Source: an uncultured Actinomycetes bacterium
GTDB lineage: Bacteria; Actinomycetota; Acidimicrobiia; Acidimicrobiales; RAAP-2
Direction: 5' to 3'
Assembly: GCA_903860745.1 (NCBI GenBank)
Contig: CAIORQ010000105.1
Location: 39,283 to 103,282, forward strand
Length of the DNA stretch: 64,000 nt
The notes beneath the pieces were generated by a model. It saw only the letters and a list, made by a program, of their open reading frames with translations, was not told the DNA's origin and did no database searches. This document shows, piece after piece, positions 47,737 through 57,380 of this stretch; position 1 is the stretch's first letter, and each line of letters starts with the position of its first letter. A program made the translations under genes and the position numbers.

Positions 47737-49339
<1,603 letters not shown>

Positions 49340-49343
<4 letters not shown>

Positions 49344-51052
49344 TTGGACTCTCTCTGCTGGGGGTGGACCATGATGTCGTCGTTGCTCGCGCCCGCGGCG
49401 ACCATGGGGAAGACCTTCTCCGAGGAGTCGGTGCGGAAATCGATGACCACGGGCACGTCGTTGATGGCGTTGGCTGCGGCGATGGCGGCGTGCATCTCGG
49501 TGACGGTCGTCGCGCGAAGGCCGACGCAGCCCATCGCCTCGGCCCACTTGACGTAGTCGGGGAGGTCGGGCGAGAGGTAGACCTCGGAGTAGCGCTCGTC
49601 GTAGAACATCTCCTGCCACTGGCGCACCATCCCGAGGTAGGCGTTGTTGAGGATGGCGACCTTGATGGGGATGCCCTCGGAGCGAGCGGTGACCAGCTCC
49701 TGGGCGGTCATCTGGAAGCAGCCGTCGCCGTCGATGCACCAGACGGTCCGGTCGGGTCGGCCGGCCTTGGCGCCGATGGCGGCGGGCACGCCGAACCCCA
49801 TGGTGCCCGCACCACCGGAGTTCACCCAGGTGCCGGGCTCCTCGAACCTCCAGAACTGGGAGGTCCACATCTGGTGCTGACCGACACCCGAGGCCACGAT
49901 GGTGCCCGGCGCGGCGGCGGCCGCGATGGACTCGATGACGAACTGCGGGCGCAGCGGACCCTCCTCGGAGGGCGCGTCGTAGACCAGGGGGTAGGTCTCG
50001 CGCCAGCCGTCGACCTCCTTCCACCACACCTCGAGGCTCTGGGGGCTCGCCCCGGCGGCGTCCCACGCGGTGAGGACGTCGGCCACGTTCGAGCGGATCG
50101 CGACGTCGGCGCGGCGCACCTTGTTGAACTCGGCCTTGTCGATGTCGACGTGGATGACCTTGGCCTTGGGGGCGAAGGCCGGGATCTTGCCGGTGACGCG
50201 GTCGTCGAAGCGCGCGCCCAGCGAGATCAGGAGGTCCGAACGCTGGATGGCGATCACCGCCGCGTAGGCGCCGTGCATGCCCGGCATACCCAGGTGCTGG
50301 GGGTGAGAGTCGGGAAAGGCGCCCCGGGCCATCAGGGTCGTCACCACCGGCATGCCGGTGCGCTCGGCGAAGGCCAGCAACTGGGCCGAGGCGTGGGACT
50401 TGAGGGTGCCACCGCCCACGTAGAGCACCGGACGCTCACTCGCCTCGATGAGCTCGATCGCCTGGGCGACCGCCGCGTCGTCGAGGTCGACCACCGGGTG
50501 GTATCCCGGCAGGTCCAGCTCCTCGATGCTCTCGGGGTACCACCACTCCATGGTGGACTGGGCGATGTCCTTGGGCACGTCGACCAGGACCGGACCGGGA
50601 CGTCCGGTGGTGGCGATGTGGAAGGCCGCCGCCACCGCGCGCGGGATCTCGTGGGCGCTCTTGACGAGGAAGTTGTGCTTGGTGATCCCCATGGTGATGC
50701 CGGTGATGTCGCACTCCTGGAAGGCGTCGGTGCCGATCGCCGCCGAGGAGACCTGGCCGGTGATGACCACCAGGGGCGTCGAGTCCATGTGGGCGTTGCC
50801 GATGGGGGTCACGATGTTCGTGGCACCGGGTCCCGAGGTCACCATCGCCACGCCGGGGCGGCCGGTGGCCAGGGCGTAGCCCTCGGCCATGTGGCCGGCG
50901 CCCTGCTCGTGGCGCACCAGTACGTGGCGGATGCTCGAGTCGATCAGGGGGTCGTAGACCGGGAGGATGGCGCCGCCGGGCAGGCCGAAGATGATCTCGA
51001 CCCCTTCCATCTCCAGGCTCTTGATGAGGGCTTGCGCTCCGGTGAGTTGCAC
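49340..51052 (-). CDS. ilvB: Acetolactate synthase large subunit
   Basis: [81 protein letters not shown]; start GTG 51052 with AAAGGA SD. Confidence 0.96.
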
Positions 51053-51073: not shown

Positions 51074-51104
51074 AAACAAAAAGGCCTCCCATTCTGGGAG
51101 GCCT
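51074..51104 (-). terminator. Leader terminator upstream of ilvB
   Basis: Minus strand AGGCCTCCCA-GAA-TGGGAGGCCT then TTTTTGTT: perfect 10-bp stem. Confidence 0.88.
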
Positions 51105-51125
51105 CCGGTATACGACAATGCGTGA

Positions 51126-51179
51126 CTACCGGCGCCAGGCGCCTACCACTACCTCGAGAACGCAGTCGCGAAATGTCAC
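51126..51179 (-). promoter_or_regulatory. Putative BCAA leader peptide ORF (attenuator) for ilvBNC
   Basis: GTG ACA TTT CGC GAC TGC GTT CTC GAG GTA GTG GTA GGC GCC TGG CGC CGG TAG = [18 protein letters not shown]. Confidence 0.78.
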
Positions 51180-51185
51180 GGTCCA

Positions 51186-51214
51186 AATATAGCCATACCG
51201 GCGGTGACGCACAA
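51186..51214 (-). promoter_or_regulatory. Putative sigma-A promoter of ilvB leader
   Basis: TTGTGC (51209-51214) - 17 nt - TATATT (51186-51191); 6 nt before leader GTG. Confidence 0.5.
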
Positions 51215-51269: not shown

Positions 51270-54089
51270 TCACTCGGTGAACACGAAGTCCTTCGCCATC
51301 GAGGTCGCGGCGCGGTAGAGCGCGCTGGCTCCACGGTGGGCTCGCACCACGCAGGTCGTCGCCGCCGAGGCGCGCAAGGTGGAACCATGGAGCGCGCACT
51401 GCGTGCCGCTCACGGTGAAGGTGGTCCTCCCGCTCCCCGCTCCCCCACTGGTCACGAGCTTGACCGCGTGAGTCGTCGTGGTCAACTTCGTGTTGGCGAT
51501 GCGCAAGGTCGGCTGCGTCGCCAACGCGAAGCTGAAGGCGACGGGCTTGGAGGTCACCGACAGGTACGCCGTGGTCGCGGCCTCGGTGGCGCGGACGATG
51601 CACGAGGTCGCTCTGGTGACGGAGAGGACGGACCTCTTCACCACGCAGCCGCGGCCGAGCGCCCGGTAGCTCACCGCACCGGTCCCCGAGCCACCGCTGC
51701 TCACCAGGGCCAGCTTCGCGGTGTCGGGGGAGCGGTGGGTGGCGTTCGCCACCCTCAGGGGCTTCGCCATCACGGCGGTGAAGCCCACCGCGACCCGCAA
51801 GGTGACCGCGGGCGCGACGCTCGCCGAGCCATCCTGTTCGAGGTCGATCTCGCAGCGGCCGCCACTCGAGGCGCTCACGTCTCCACTCGACGTGACCCGA
51901 CAATCGGCGGCCGTCGAGCCGGGCACGCTCACGCCGTAGTCGACGGGCAGGCCCGAACTCGAGGTGGCCGCCACCGAGATGAAGGTCGACCAGGGTTGGG
52001 GCTCCTGGGCCGCGGGCGGGTTGATGGCCTGGGAAGTCGCCTCGTCGTAGAACTGGGCCGTCCCGCCGCCCACGTCACCGTTCGTCGTCGAACCCACCGT
52101 GGCGCCGACCAGGGCCTCGGCTCCGGCGAGCGCCACCGAGACCCCGAAGTACGACAGCGAGTTGGCCGTGGGGTTGGTGAGCGGCGACGTGCGCTGCCAC
52201 GAGGTCGTTCGGTTGTAGGCGTAGACCGATCCCGACTCGTTCGTGGAACCGACCGAACCGACGAGGGCGTTGGTGCCCGAGAGGGCCACCGACGACCCGA
52301 AACCGTCGTCGGCCCCCGTCGCAGGGTCGCCCAGCGTCGCCGTGACGACCCATCCGCTCGACTCGAGGGACCAGACGTAGGCCACGCCGCCGCCGTCGCC
52401 GCTGGCCCCCACCAGCGCGTCGGAACCCGAGAGGGCCACCGCATCGGCGAAGTCGTCGTTCGCGTTGTCGGCCGGGTCGTTCGCACTGGTCCCGGAGGCC
52501 CACAGCGCCCCGTTGAACTGGTAGAAGTGGACCGCGCCCCCCGCGGGCGTGCCGTCCTCACCGACCACCGCGTTGATCCCGTCGATGGCCACCGCGTCAC
52601 CGAAGTGGTACCCGGCGGCGCCGGCGGCGTCGTTGACCTTCGTGACGAAGGACCAGAGGCTCGTGCCCAAGCGGTAGAAGAAGGCCAGGCCCGTGCCCCC
52701 GCCGCTGCCGTCAGCGCCGATGACGGCGTTGTCGCCCGACAGCGCGACCGCCGAACCGAAGAGGTCGCCGGCCGTCAGGTTCGCGTCCGTCACGGGCGTG
52801 CTCGGGGACCAGCTGCCGTTGCGCCACTGGTAGAAGTAGGCGGCGCCCTCGTTGGCGTCCGCCCCCGGCGCGCCCACCAGCGCCCAGTCCCCGGAGATGG
52901 CGACCGACTGTCCGAAGAAGTCGTCGTTGGTGGCGTTGGGGTCGCTCTCGAATTCGATGGACTGCCACTGGCCGAGCTCGCGCTTGAAGAAGAAGACCTG
53001 CCCCTGGCCGAGCGGGCTCGGATACCCCGGTTCGCCCACGATGGCGCTGTCACCCGATATGAACACCGAGAGCCCCTCGCGGTCGAAACCCTTGGTCCCC
53101 GAGGCGCTCGCCCCGGCCAGCCACGTTCCCGAGGCGAGGTCCACGGTGTAGGCCACGCCCGCGGAGGTGCCCGCCGGTGACGTGCCCACCAGGGCCTCGT
53201 CCCCCGAGAGCGCGATGGCCGATCCGAAGTAGTCCTTCGCGGCGCCGGGGTCGTGGATGACCACGGCTGGGCTCTGGGTCGAGTTGTCGACGTCGAGGTC
53301 GTAGACGTAGACCGCGCCCTGGCCGGCGTCGATCCCGTCGGCGGCCACCAGGATCTTGGAATCCGACACCGCGACCCGGTACCCGAAGTCGGCGTCGGCC
53401 GCTGCGTCGGGATAATTGAGCACCTGGACGATGGACCAACCGTTGGCGCCGAAGTCGAGGACGTAGGCACCCCCCCTCTTGTTGGCCGAGGCGTTGACGC
53501 CGATCACCGCGGTGCCCCCCGAGATGGCCACCGCCCCGCCGTAGCCGTCACCGGCGGCACCGGGGTCGGCCGGCGACACCAACTGGGTCCACCCCGACGC
53601 GCCCAACTCGTAGAAGTACGCGGCGCCGGTGCCCAGGTCGTCGGCGTCCGCCCCGATCACCGCGTTGGTGCCCGAGAGGGCGAGCGACGAGCCGAACTCG
53701 TCGAGGTTGGTCGCGCCAGGATCGTTGAATTCCCCGTCCTGGGTCCAGCCCCCGCCCCTGAACTGGTAAAAGTAGGCCGCTCCTTGGTCCGAGGTGGTGC
53801 CCCAGGCGCCGATCACCGCGTTGTCCCCCGAGATCGCGACCGCGGCGCCGAAGTCGTCCGACGACACGCCCACCGTGTCGATCTCCTCCTGGGACCGTTG
53901 CCAGCCACTCGCACCCAACTGGTAGAAGTACGCCACGCCGCCCACCGGGGCGCCGGGAGCACCGATCAGCGCCATGCCCCCCGAGATCGCCACGGATTGT
54001 CCGAAGTCGTCGACCGACGAGTGCCCGGGGTCGCTGACGGTCTGCACGAGGCTCCACCCGCTCGCTCCGAGCTGGTAGAAGTAGACCAC
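51270..54089 (-). CDS. FG-GAP-type repeat secreted protein, 3' part of a frameshifted gene
   Basis: 13 repeats of the form DDFGxSVAxSGxxAxVGAxG + C-terminal Cys domains; 5' end continues in another frame. Confidence 0.8.
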   Translation of the reverse strand: MVYFYQLGASGWSLVQTVSDPGHSSVDDFGQSVAISGGMALIGAPGAPVGGVAYFYQLGASGWQRSQEEIDTVGVSSDDFGAAVAISGDNAVIGAWGTTSDQGAAYFYQFRGGGWTQDGEFNDPGATNLDEFGSSLALSGTNAVIGADADDLGTGAAYFYELGASGWTQLVSPADPGAAGDGYGGAVAISGGTAVIGVNASANKRGGAYVLDFGANGWSIVQVLNYPDAAADADFGYRVAVSDSKILVAADGIDAGQGAVYVYDLDVDNSTQSPAVVIHDPGAAKDYFGSAIALSGDEALVGTSPAGTSAGVAYTVDLASGTWLAGASASGTKGFDREGLSVFISGDSAIVGEPGYPSPLGQGQVFFFKRELGQWQSIEFESDPNATNDDFFGQSVAISGDWALVGAPGADANEGAAYFYQWRNGSWSPSTPVTDANLTAGDLFGSAVALSGDNAVIGADGSGGGTGLAFFYRLGTSLWSFVTKVNDAAGAAGYHFGDAVAIDGINAVVGEDGTPAGGAVHFYQFNGALWASGTSANDPADNANDDFADAVALSGSDALVGASGDGGGVAYVWSLESSGWVVTATLGDPATGADDGFGSSVALSGTNALVGSVGSTNESGSVYAYNRTTSWQRTSPLTNPTANSLSYFGVSVALAGAEALVGATVGSTTNGDVGGGTAQFYDEATSQAINPPAAQEPQPWSTFISVAATSSSGLPVDYGVSVPGSTAADCRVTSSGDVSASSGGRCEIDLEQDGSASVAPAVTLRVAVGFTAVMAKPLRVANATHRSPDTAKLALVSSGGSGTGAVSYRALGRGCVVKRSVLSVTRATSCIVRATEAATTAYLSVTSKPVAFSFALATQPTLRIANTKLTTTTHAVKLVTSGGAGSGRTTFTVSGTQCALHGSTLRASAATTCVVRAHRGASALYRAATSMAKDFVFTE

Positions 54090-54573: not shown

Positions 54574-56385
54574 CTAGTCCGAGGCCATGCCCCCGCCCGC
54601 CAGGGCCGGTCGAGCACTCGCGCGCATGCGCCGCAGCACGCGGTGGGTCACGTCGACGGCGTCGGGGTGCTGGCCACCGTTGGCCCGGGATCGCTCCTGC
54701 CACGTCGCGGCGCGCGCCGCCAAGATCGCCGGGTCGCGGAACTCGACGCAGTCGAGCCGGTCGGCGTTGACGTCGACGACGATGGTGTCGCCGTCCTCGA
54801 CGAGGGCGATGGGACCGCCCAGCAACGCCTCGGGCGCCACGTGGCCGATGACCAGGCCCACCGAGCCGCCCGAGAATCGCGCGTCGGTCATGAGCGCGAT
54901 GGTGATGCCGCGCTGGCGGCAGATGGTGGTGATCTTGGAGGTGGGATCGAGCATCTCGGGCATGCCGGGCGCCCCGCGGGGGCCCTCGTAGCGGATGACC
55001 ACCATGTCGTTGTCCGCGAACTCGTCCGCGCGCTCGTCGAGCGCGGCGATCAGGTCGTGCTCGCCGTTGAAGACCCGCGCGGTGCCGGTGAAGACGCCCT
55101 CGACGATGCCGCTCTCCACCCCGGCCAGCTTCAAGATGGCCCCGCCCTCGGGGGCGAGGTTGCCGCTCAGCAGTCGCAGGCCTCCGGTGGGCTTGAAGGG
55201 CCGGGCACAGGAGAAGATGACCTCGTGGTCCGCGGGCGGCGGCACCAGGCGGGCGACCTGCTCGGCCAGGGTCTCACCCGTGCAGGTGATGGTGGCGCCG
55301 TCGAGGTAGCCCGCGGCGAGCAGCTCCGCCACCACCGCAGGCAGCCCGCCCGACGCCTCGACGTCGACCATCGAATAGGCGCCGAAGGGCCGCATGTTGA
55401 CGATGACCGGCAGGCGCCGCGACAGCTCGTTGAACTCCTGCTGGCTCATCACCTCGTCCCACAGGTCGATCCCCGCGGCCCGGGCGATCTCCACGCTGTG
55501 CAGCATCACGTTGGTCGAGCCACCCATGGCGATCGCCACCGTGAGCGCGTTGCGCAACGCGGCGGGCGTCACGATGTCGCGAGGGCGGATGCCCCGCGCG
55601 GTCATGGTCACGAGGCAGTCGACGAGCTCGGCGGGGAACTGCTCGAGGCGACGCGGGTCGTCCGAGGGGGGCGCCACCATGTGCAGGGGCTCGAGTCCCA
55701 GCACGCCGAAGAAGGTCTGCATGGTGTTGTAGGTGAACATGCCCCCGCAGCTGCCCTGGCCGGGGCAGGCGTGCAGGGTGATCTCCTCGCGCAGCTCCTC
55801 GTCGGGGCTCGAGGCCACCTGGAAGGCGTCCACGAGGTCGATGCGCTCGCCGGTCCTCGAATGGCGTCCGGGCTTGATCGAGCCGTCCGAGAGCACCACC
55901 GAGGGCACGTTCTGTTCGACCATGGCCGCCACCGTCCCCACCGGGGGCTTGTCACAGGCGACGACGGCCACGAGCCCCGCGACCTGGTTGGCGGCCACGT
56001 GCACCGAGACCGCGTCGTTGACCAGCTCGCGTCCGATGAGCGAGAAGCGCATCTGCGGCGTGCCGTTGAGTTGTCCGTCCGACACCCCCACGGTGAAGGT
56101 CGGTGCGATGAGACGGATCGCCAGGGCGTCGCGCGCGATGCGCGCCGACATGGCCGCCTGGACCGCCGCCACCTTCTCCGAGACGCCCAGGTAGCACTGG
56201 CTGTCGCCGAGGTTGCCCACCACGGCCCAGACGGGGTCGTGGATCTTGGTGACGTCCTCGCCGAGGAATCGGGCGGTGCCCACGCGCTGGACGTCGCGAC
56301 CCGGGTTCGAGGACTTGATGTCGGCGAAATGGCGCCCGGTGGCGCTCGCGGGGTCGGTCGTGGAGTGGCGGGGGTCGGCGGACAT
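54574..56385 (-). CDS. ilvD: Dihydroxy-acid dehydratase / ILVD-EDD family
   Basis: HACPGQGSCGGMFTYNTMQ, MGGSTNVMLHSVEIARAAGI, GGLRLLSGNLAPEGGAILK, TDARFSGGSVGLVIGHVAPEA. Confidence 0.82.
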   Translation of the reverse strand: MSADPRHSTTDPASATGRHFADIKSSNPGRDVQRVGTARFLGEDVTKIHDPVWAVVGNLGDSQCYLGVSEKVAAVQAAMSARIARDALAIRLIAPTFTVGVSDGQLNGTPQMRFSLIGRELVNDAVSVHVAANQVAGLVAVVACDKPPVGTVAAMVEQNVPSVVLSDGSIKPGRHSRTGERIDLVDAFQVASSPDEELREEITLHACPGQGSCGGMFTYNTMQTFFGVLGLEPLHMVAPPSDDPRRLEQFPAELVDCLVTMTARGIRPRDIVTPAALRNALTVAIAMGGSTNVMLHSVEIARAAGIDLWDEVMSQQEFNELSRRLPVIVNMRPFGAYSMVDVEASGGLPAVVAELLAAGYLDGATITCTGETLAEQVARLVPPPADHEVIFSCARPFKPTGGLRLLSGNLAPEGGAILKLAGVESGIVEGVFTGTARVFNGEHDLIAALDERADEFADNDMVVIRYEGPRGAPGMPEMLDPTSKITTICRQRGITIALMTDARFSGGSVGLVIGHVAPEALLGGPIALVEDGDTIVVDVNADRLDCVEFRDPAILAARAATWQERSRANGGQHPDAVDVTHRVLRRMRASARPALAGGGMASD

Positions 56386-56459
56386 GACGTGAATTCTAGA
56401 CAGGGCGACCTGGTCGGCCCGTGGCCCCGGGCGGTGACGCCCGTCGGTAGGCTCGCACT

Positions 56460-57380
56460 GTGTCAACGCGTCTGAGCGTCAGCGTCTCCGAAGACTTCCT
56501 CTACGAGGCCCTGGTCGGCGACGAGGGACTCGACGTGCTGCGCTGGGACCTCGAGGGCCCCGCCCCGCGCGAGGCGATCGACCTCGTGGTCCCCGACTAC
56601 CTCGCCCCCAAGTCACGCCTGGCCAACCTGGTCGGGGTCCGCAGTCGCCTCGTGCAGAGCCAGATGATCGGTTACGACGGCGTGGCGGCGCTGCTGCCCC
56701 CGGGCGTCGTCTACGCCAACGCCGCCTCGGTGCACGAGACCTCGACGGCCGAGCTCGCCCTGGCCCTCGTCCTGGCCGCCCAGCGCGGACTCCCCGACTT
56801 CGTGCGCGCCGCCGAGCTCGGTCGCTGGGCCTTCGACTACTACCCGAGCCTGGCGGACAAACGCGTGCTCCTCCTGGGATACGGCGGGGTGGGACGCGCC
56901 ATCGAGGCCCGCCTGGCGCCCTTCGAGGTCGACGTCGTGCGCGTCGCGCACCGCGCCCGGGTCGCCGAGACCGGTCCGGTGCACGGCGTCGGCGAGCTGG
57001 GCGCCCTGCTTCCCCACGCCGACGTGGTCATCGTGTCGCTGCCCCTCACCGCAGAGACCCACCACCTCGTCGACGCCACCTTCCTCGCGGCCATGGCCGA
57101 CCACAGTCTCTTCGTCAACGTCGGGCGGGGACCCGTGGTGGCCACCGAGGACCTGGTGGCCTGTGCCGCCACCGGTCGCCTGCGCGTGGCCCTCGACGTG
57201 GTCGAGCCCGAGCCCCTGCCCGAGGGGCACCCGCTGTACTCGATGCCCAACGTGCTGATCTCGCCCCACGTGGGTGGCGCCACCAGCGCCATGCGCCCAC
57301 GGGTCCTGCGTCTGATCGCCACCCAGATCGAACGCCTGCGTCGCGGCGAGGAGCCGCTCAACGTGGTGCTGCGGACCTAG
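56460..57380 (+). CDS. D-isomer-specific 2-hydroxyacid dehydrogenase
   Basis: KRVLLLGYGGVGRAIEARLAPFEVDVVRV, NVGRGPVVATEDLVACAATG, ISPHVGGATSAM. Confidence 0.92.
   Translation: MSTRLSVSVSEDFLYEALVGDEGLDVLRWDLEGPAPREAIDLVVPDYLAPKSRLANLVGVRSRLVQSQMIGYDGVAALLPPGVVYANAASVHETSTAELALALVLAAQRGLPDFVRAAELGRWAFDYYPSLADKRVLLLGYGGVGRAIEARLAPFEVDVVRVAHRARVAETGPVHGVGELGALLPHADVVIVSLPLTAETHHLVDATFLAAMADHSLFVNVGRGPVVATEDLVACAATGRLRVALDVVEPEPLPEGHPLYSMPNVLISPHVGGATSAMRPRVLRLIATQIERLRRGEEPLNVVLRT

Follow-up and report, generated by a model that had tools for sequence, protein, structure and literature searches.

In the ilvBNC leader of Corynebacterium glutamicum, three hairpins are found, a boundary GCC is common to antiterminator and terminator, the leader start codon lies one nucleotide from the transcription start site, and CUU and GUA are the control codons (PMC11857589). 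The ilvB-II motif of Corynebacterium has been published for this genus only (PMC10272879). In Mycobacterium tuberculosis, ilvB1 is preceded by an upstream open reading frame (uORF) for branched-chain amino acids (BCAA) with a GUA regulatory codon (PMC13236596). Leader peptides and terminators before ilvB were predicted in 2005 for Corynebacterium, Mycobacterium, and Streptomyces (Seliverstov et al., PMC1262725), the mode of ilvB regulation being left open there; the passage of that paper on S. coelicolor cites a study in which candidate regulatory codons of the ilvB leader were altered without effect. That codon choice is biased in attenuators is likewise an accepted notion (PMC1183508). While the principle of attenuation and its layout are thus already known, the occurrence in Acidimicrobiia is without earlier description in the literature searched: no account of leader-peptide attenuation in this group was found, with most subscription journals lying outside the coverage of the search.

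The window analysed here, a stretch of 64,000 nucleotides, is part of a 2.1-Mb draft genome, the nearest named relatives of which are Acidimicrobiaceae/Acidimicrobiales metagenome bins, several of them tagged bog, palsa, or fen. On its minus strand, a promoter, a leader ORF, and a terminator with U-tract are followed by ilvB (acetolactate synthase large subunit, 49340-51052, with Pfam TPP enzyme domains), by ilvN (small subunit, 48789-49343, Pfam ACT_AHAS_ss and ALS_ss_C), the start of which overlaps the ilvB stop, and by ilvC (ketol-acid reductoisomerase, 47737-48771, Pfam KARI_N and KARI_C). Upstream on the same strand, a gene of 939 aa with FG-GAP repeats (51273-54089) is situated between the leader and ilvD (54577-56466, identified by Pfam). 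In many relatives, unlike in the window with its intervening FG-GAP gene, the end of ilvD seems to lie immediately before the leader. Concerning the beginning of ilvB, the ORF list gives a start at 51118, which the initial annotation had already doubted in favour of the GTG at 51052 preceded by AAAGGA. The latter is the right start, since the homology of relatives begins at that residue and the listed upstream extension is the leader itself, the leaders of relatives falling within this "extra" N-terminus; the ilvB start codon is thereby fixed by the leader analysis.

The initial annotation took the region upstream of ilvBNC for a BCAA attenuator, and the features on which it relied, namely the leader ORF with its Val run, the terminator, and a competing fold, are all conserved in relatives. 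Judging from sequence comparison and folding models, we consider it very probable that the region functions as a ribosome-mediated transcription attenuator of ilvBNC responding to charged tRNA-Val, mainly to the GUA-reading isoacceptor. Comparison among relatives supports the promoter, the conservation of the ORF and of its in-frame codons, the terminator, and the pairing of region 2 with region 3 (2:3 pairing); the start site, translation, stalling, and the direction of regulation are what we infer.

In its organization, this predicted attenuator is closest to the ilvBNC leader of C. glutamicum and the ilvB-II motif (PMC11857589; PMC10272879), with which it shares the operon, a BCAA leader ORF about one nucleotide from the (here predicted) transcript start, GUA among the control codons, the succession of anti-antiterminator (here a candidate), antiterminator, and terminator, and a boundary GCC contested by the latter two, with a GGC further upstream as its alternative partner. 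There are also differences from C. glutamicum: the host belongs to the Acidimicrobiia, three consecutive Val codons, mostly GUA, are present, the primary sequence and loop sizes differ, and the arms of antiterminator and terminator adjoin directly. A BCAA uORF, a GUA codon, and a choice between terminator and antiterminator set by the ribosome footprint, which is predicted here, are likewise features of M. tuberculosis ilvB1 (PMC13236596), whereas its codons (LVVI), the length of its leader (166 nt vs. about 127 nt here), and its hairpins are different. The locus further resembles the class predicted in 2005 (PMC1262725) in having an Ile/Val/Leu leader ORF of the kind that overlaps terminators upstream of ilvB.

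The promoter comprises a -35-like hexamer TTGTGC (51209-51214) and a -10 box TATATT (51186-51191), and with its arrangement TTGTGC-17-TATATT (51214-51186) it is consensus-like. For the comparison, a genus set of 42 distinct leaders from the genus of the window and its near relatives was used; promoter, ORF, hairpins, and terminator recur across about 40 same-genus leaders. Of 38 distinct genus leaders, 79% keep TTGTG at a spacing of 16-18 nt, whereas none of the shifted control windows contains it. The start codon is situated 5-7 nt past the -10 box in the genus leaders and 6 nt past it in the window, such that transcription probably begins at the leader GTG or within about 1 nucleotide of it and the leader mRNA is probably leaderless or near-leaderless.

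The leader ORF, with GTG start and TAG stop (51179-51126, minus strand), is the 18-codon ORF with V-L-E-V-V-V that had been noted before, i.e., 17 residues and a stop, and its sequence is as stated then. Its conservation, on which the earlier reading depended, is borne out by the 42 distinct leaders, in which only ORF lengths of 36, 45, 48, and 51 nt occur, all multiples of three, while the linker behind the stop changes in length by one base at a time. The putative regulatory Val codons GTA GTG GTA (51144-51152) stand out by sequence and codon counts. In the genus leaders, 101 GTA trinucleotides are in frame, vs. 11 and 2 off frame, and in 72 other Acidimicrobiales leaders the ratio is 112:9:1 (in frame first); GTA is therefore selected in one frame, which argues that the codon is kept and not the RNA alone. 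An in-frame GUA is present in 40 of the 42 genus leaders and in all 72 others, there usually three or four codons ahead of the stop; the ORFs of this wider set had been picked partly by BCAA content near the stop and by a -10-like box, not by GUA. GUA accounts for 101 of 131 Val codons (77%) in the genus leaders vs. 3.1% in the corresponding ilvB genes, and for 63% vs. 3.6% in the other Acidimicrobiales, background codon usage being approximated by ilvB for the relatives and by ilvB, ilvC, and ilvD for the window. Among the tRNA-Val genes decoded in the genome, there is one each with anticodons UAC, CAC, and GAC, a tally that excludes ten further undecoded tRNA matches. The phrase "GUA codon" was not found in the ilvB leader-peptide literature searched, which covered few subscription journals. 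Instead of all three branched-chain amino acids counting equally, valine, via the GUA codons, looks to be the favoured effector. The near-invariant GUA, which makes up only 3-4% of the Val codons in ilvB, together with a gene for tRNA-Val(UAC), offers a clean test case for isoacceptor-specific sensing as treated in selective-charging theory.

The intrinsic terminator (3:4 stem-loop, 51080-51106, GAA loop) had been described as a perfect 10-bp stem with U-tract, and AGGCCTCCCA-GAA-TGGGAGGCCT indeed forms 10 Watson-Crick pairs; counting two G-U pairs in addition, the stem comprises 12 pairs (51106-51080), the last G-U pairs being overlapped by the U-tract (51074-51082). It is the sole terminator-like site in a 500-bp region, for which shuffles yield 0.2 +/- 0.4. 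Across the 42 leaders, 98% of the cells are paired and the covariation score exceeds that of all 500 shuffles. RNA folding, suggested earlier as a check, agrees with a structured leader of 110 nt (-44.6 vs. -34.8 kcal/mol; more stable than 200 of 200 dinucleotide shuffles, z -2.9).

The inverted repeat 51127-51132/51105-51110, from which a competing fold had been proposed, is present and forms the core of the antiterminator; taken alone, however, its contact with the terminator is limited to two marginal G-U pairs. Genuine overlap with the terminator is due to the adjoining GGC (51136-51134), which pairs with GCC (51102-51100), such that the 2:3 antiterminator (51100-51136; GGC and CCGGUA, the latter at 51132-51127, with UACCGG, 51110-51105, and GCC) extends beyond the 6-bp repeat and occupies the 5' arm of the terminator. 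The boundary GCC, situated close to the foot of the terminator, can pair alternatively with this GGC or with the 3' arm of the terminator. A third hairpin, missing from the initial annotation, is the 1:2 hairpin GGCGC-CUG-GCGCC (51131-51143, -8.5 kcal/mol), a candidate anti-antiterminator, the covariation score of which is matched by 1 of 500 shuffles and which is weak or absent in several relatives (L018, L023, L026, and L075).

Fixed-column covariation of the antiterminator is modest (the score is matched by 12 of 500 shuffles, the number of double-changed pairs by 79 of 500), partly owing to register shifts between lineages. Since fixed columns are too conserved and shift too much in register to decide, regions 2 and 3 were put to a swap test: own partners reach -13.1 kcal/mol vs. 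-11.1 +/- 0.37 kcal/mol for permuted ones, a value attained in 0 of 20000 permutations, a figure that is optimistic because the permutation ignores the relatedness of the sequences. Several leaders that have departed from the CCGG motif possess matching 2:3 pairs of their own: GGCCUCGGUA/UACCGAGGCC (10 bp) in L027, GGCCUCG/CGAGGCC (7 bp) in L064, and others in L007, L023, and L071. In L032 and L074 region 2 is situated after the stop codon, with the 2:3 pairing still maintained.

In the mechanism that we propose, transcription would begin at or near the leader GTG, and a leaderless or near-leaderless mRNA would encode the peptide. With ample Val-tRNA, the ribosome would reach the UAG stop and mask region 2 (GGCGCCGGUAG), region 3 would then pair with region 4, and the resulting terminator would halt transcription. 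With scarce Val-tRNA, the ribosome would stall at the first codons of GUA-GUG-GUA and leave region 2 bare to pair with region 3 (GGC-G-CCGGUA/UACCGG-AG-GCC), which would consume the 5' arm of the terminator and let RNA polymerase continue into ilvBNC. Without translation, the 1:2 hairpin should sequester region 2 and favour termination. When only the RNA outside the ribosome footprint was folded, up to the terminator 5' arm, at least two of the three boundary GCC bases were paired upstream in 40 of the 42 leaders if the A site held the first Val codon of the run; if it held the last one, the GCC was captured in 11 of 42, and if it held the stop codon, complete pairing of the three bases occurred in 0 of 42. 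Simple folding free of the ribosome still allowed the antiterminator in 19 of 42 leaders. As modelled, this geometry would fit antitermination during a stall at the first codon of the Val run and termination once the ribosome is at the stop.

To assess the distribution, a covariance model was built from the genus leaders; it detects a single strong copy in the genome to which the window belongs (E 1.2e-24); further matches up to E 1 are the reverse strand of the same palindromic stem (E 0.09) and one elsewhere (E 0.85). Other GTAGTAGTAGG sites in this genome are unrelated, judged by their surroundings. In the order, 50 of 148 sampled genomes contain matches, and those with known ilvB position lie just upstream of this gene (e.g., in G053, G046, G039, G060, and G044, further in G043, G050, G055, and G056). 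Direct inspection of distinct leaders revealed that, among other Acidimicrobiales, no fewer than 72 loci carry a divergent form before ilvB, in which an RTG 5-9 nt past a -10-like box begins a short peptide often ending in LVV(V/L/I)T. In 33 of the 72 leader peptides outside the genus, threonine is the last residue before the stop. A hairpin, P1, starts at the stop codon, typically as UAG-CGCACGC...GCGUGCGC, and the terminator is most often CGACCUCCC...GGGAGGUCG. Swap tests on these leaders (L034-L055, L080-L139) confirm the arms of P1 (z -16.8) and of the terminator (z -11.7) as partners, while for no ORF segment did the terminator 5' arm prove to be a specific partner (z +2.6 and +1.3), and P1 arms with terminator arms as well as ORF with P1 at best equalled permuted partners or fell behind them. 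A borderline signal between the P1 5' arm and the terminator 3' arm (z -1.8, 171 of 5000) is not significant after nine tests. As no overlapping antiterminator was found in these leaders, it seems to be particular to the genus of the window and its near kin. This restriction and the near-invariant GUA are the points that go beyond routine annotation.

Other explanations of the locus have to be weighed against attenuation by ribosome stalling. The FG-GAP gene (51273-54089) ends on the same minus strand, with about 165 nt separating it from the terminator downstream, so that hairpin and U-tract might simply terminate this gene, with the short ORF being incidental; given that leader and terminator recur behind different upstream sequence, often the end of ilvD, that a conserved promoter follows the upstream gene and precedes the terminator, and that GTA is selected in a single reading frame, we regard this as very unlikely. 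A metabolite-binding riboswitch or a protein-binding RNA would agree with a structured and conserved RNA, and ppGpp riboswitches do precede ilvB in some Firmicutes (PMC10272879). In the whole window, however, no Rfam family attains its gathering score, and at gathering and relaxed thresholds the scan of the window gave no riboswitch or T-box aptamer family, nor a convincing one below threshold. The best weak match, Phe_leader (RF01859), is itself an attenuator; it has the classical layout and a similar terminator in common with our locus, which is not a member, as it scores 23.8 bits vs. a gathering score of 55 and as Phe codons and other operons characterize that family. With conservation residing in codons and switching arms and no large aptamer-like core, such an RNA is extremely improbable here.

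Control might also be exerted on a transcribed leader by something other than codon-dependent stalling, such as constitutive partial termination or regulation by translation or growth state. The codon changes in the S. coelicolor ilvB leader, reportedly without effect according to their citation in PMC1262725, would suit this explanation, as would the fact that in most other Acidimicrobiales leaders no antiterminator overlapping the terminator was found. Against it stand the near-invariant in-frame GUA codons and the antiterminator pairing kept in the genus, the geometry of which fits stalling at the first codon of the Val run; we consider it improbable and prefer stalling on the GUA codons.

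The data extend predicted ilvB attenuation to an uncultured order and suggest an old age of the mechanism in Actinomycetota. A broader scheme is conceivable, although we put it forward tentatively and with more doubt than belief: in Acidimicrobiales, and probably in much of Actinomycetota, the ilvB attenuator might be built around one obligatory rare GUA and read the charging of tRNA-Val(UAC). Most families would do so without a canonical antiterminator, P1, disrupted or allowed by the ribosome, affecting a non-overlapping terminator via an undescribed route, and the genus of the window would have rebuilt P1 into an overlapping antiterminator. For the long-standing puzzle of the Streptomyces ilvB leader, the lack of such an antiterminator in most families may be relevant. 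Among other Actinomycetota that were sampled, short ORFs rich in BCAA before ilvB mostly hold one GTA, a count that is unfiltered and only indicative. In L180, from a genome of another class, the leader MRTRILVLGKRVG, followed by its stop, contains one GTA upstream of ilvB; it resembles a Streptomyces ilvB leader.
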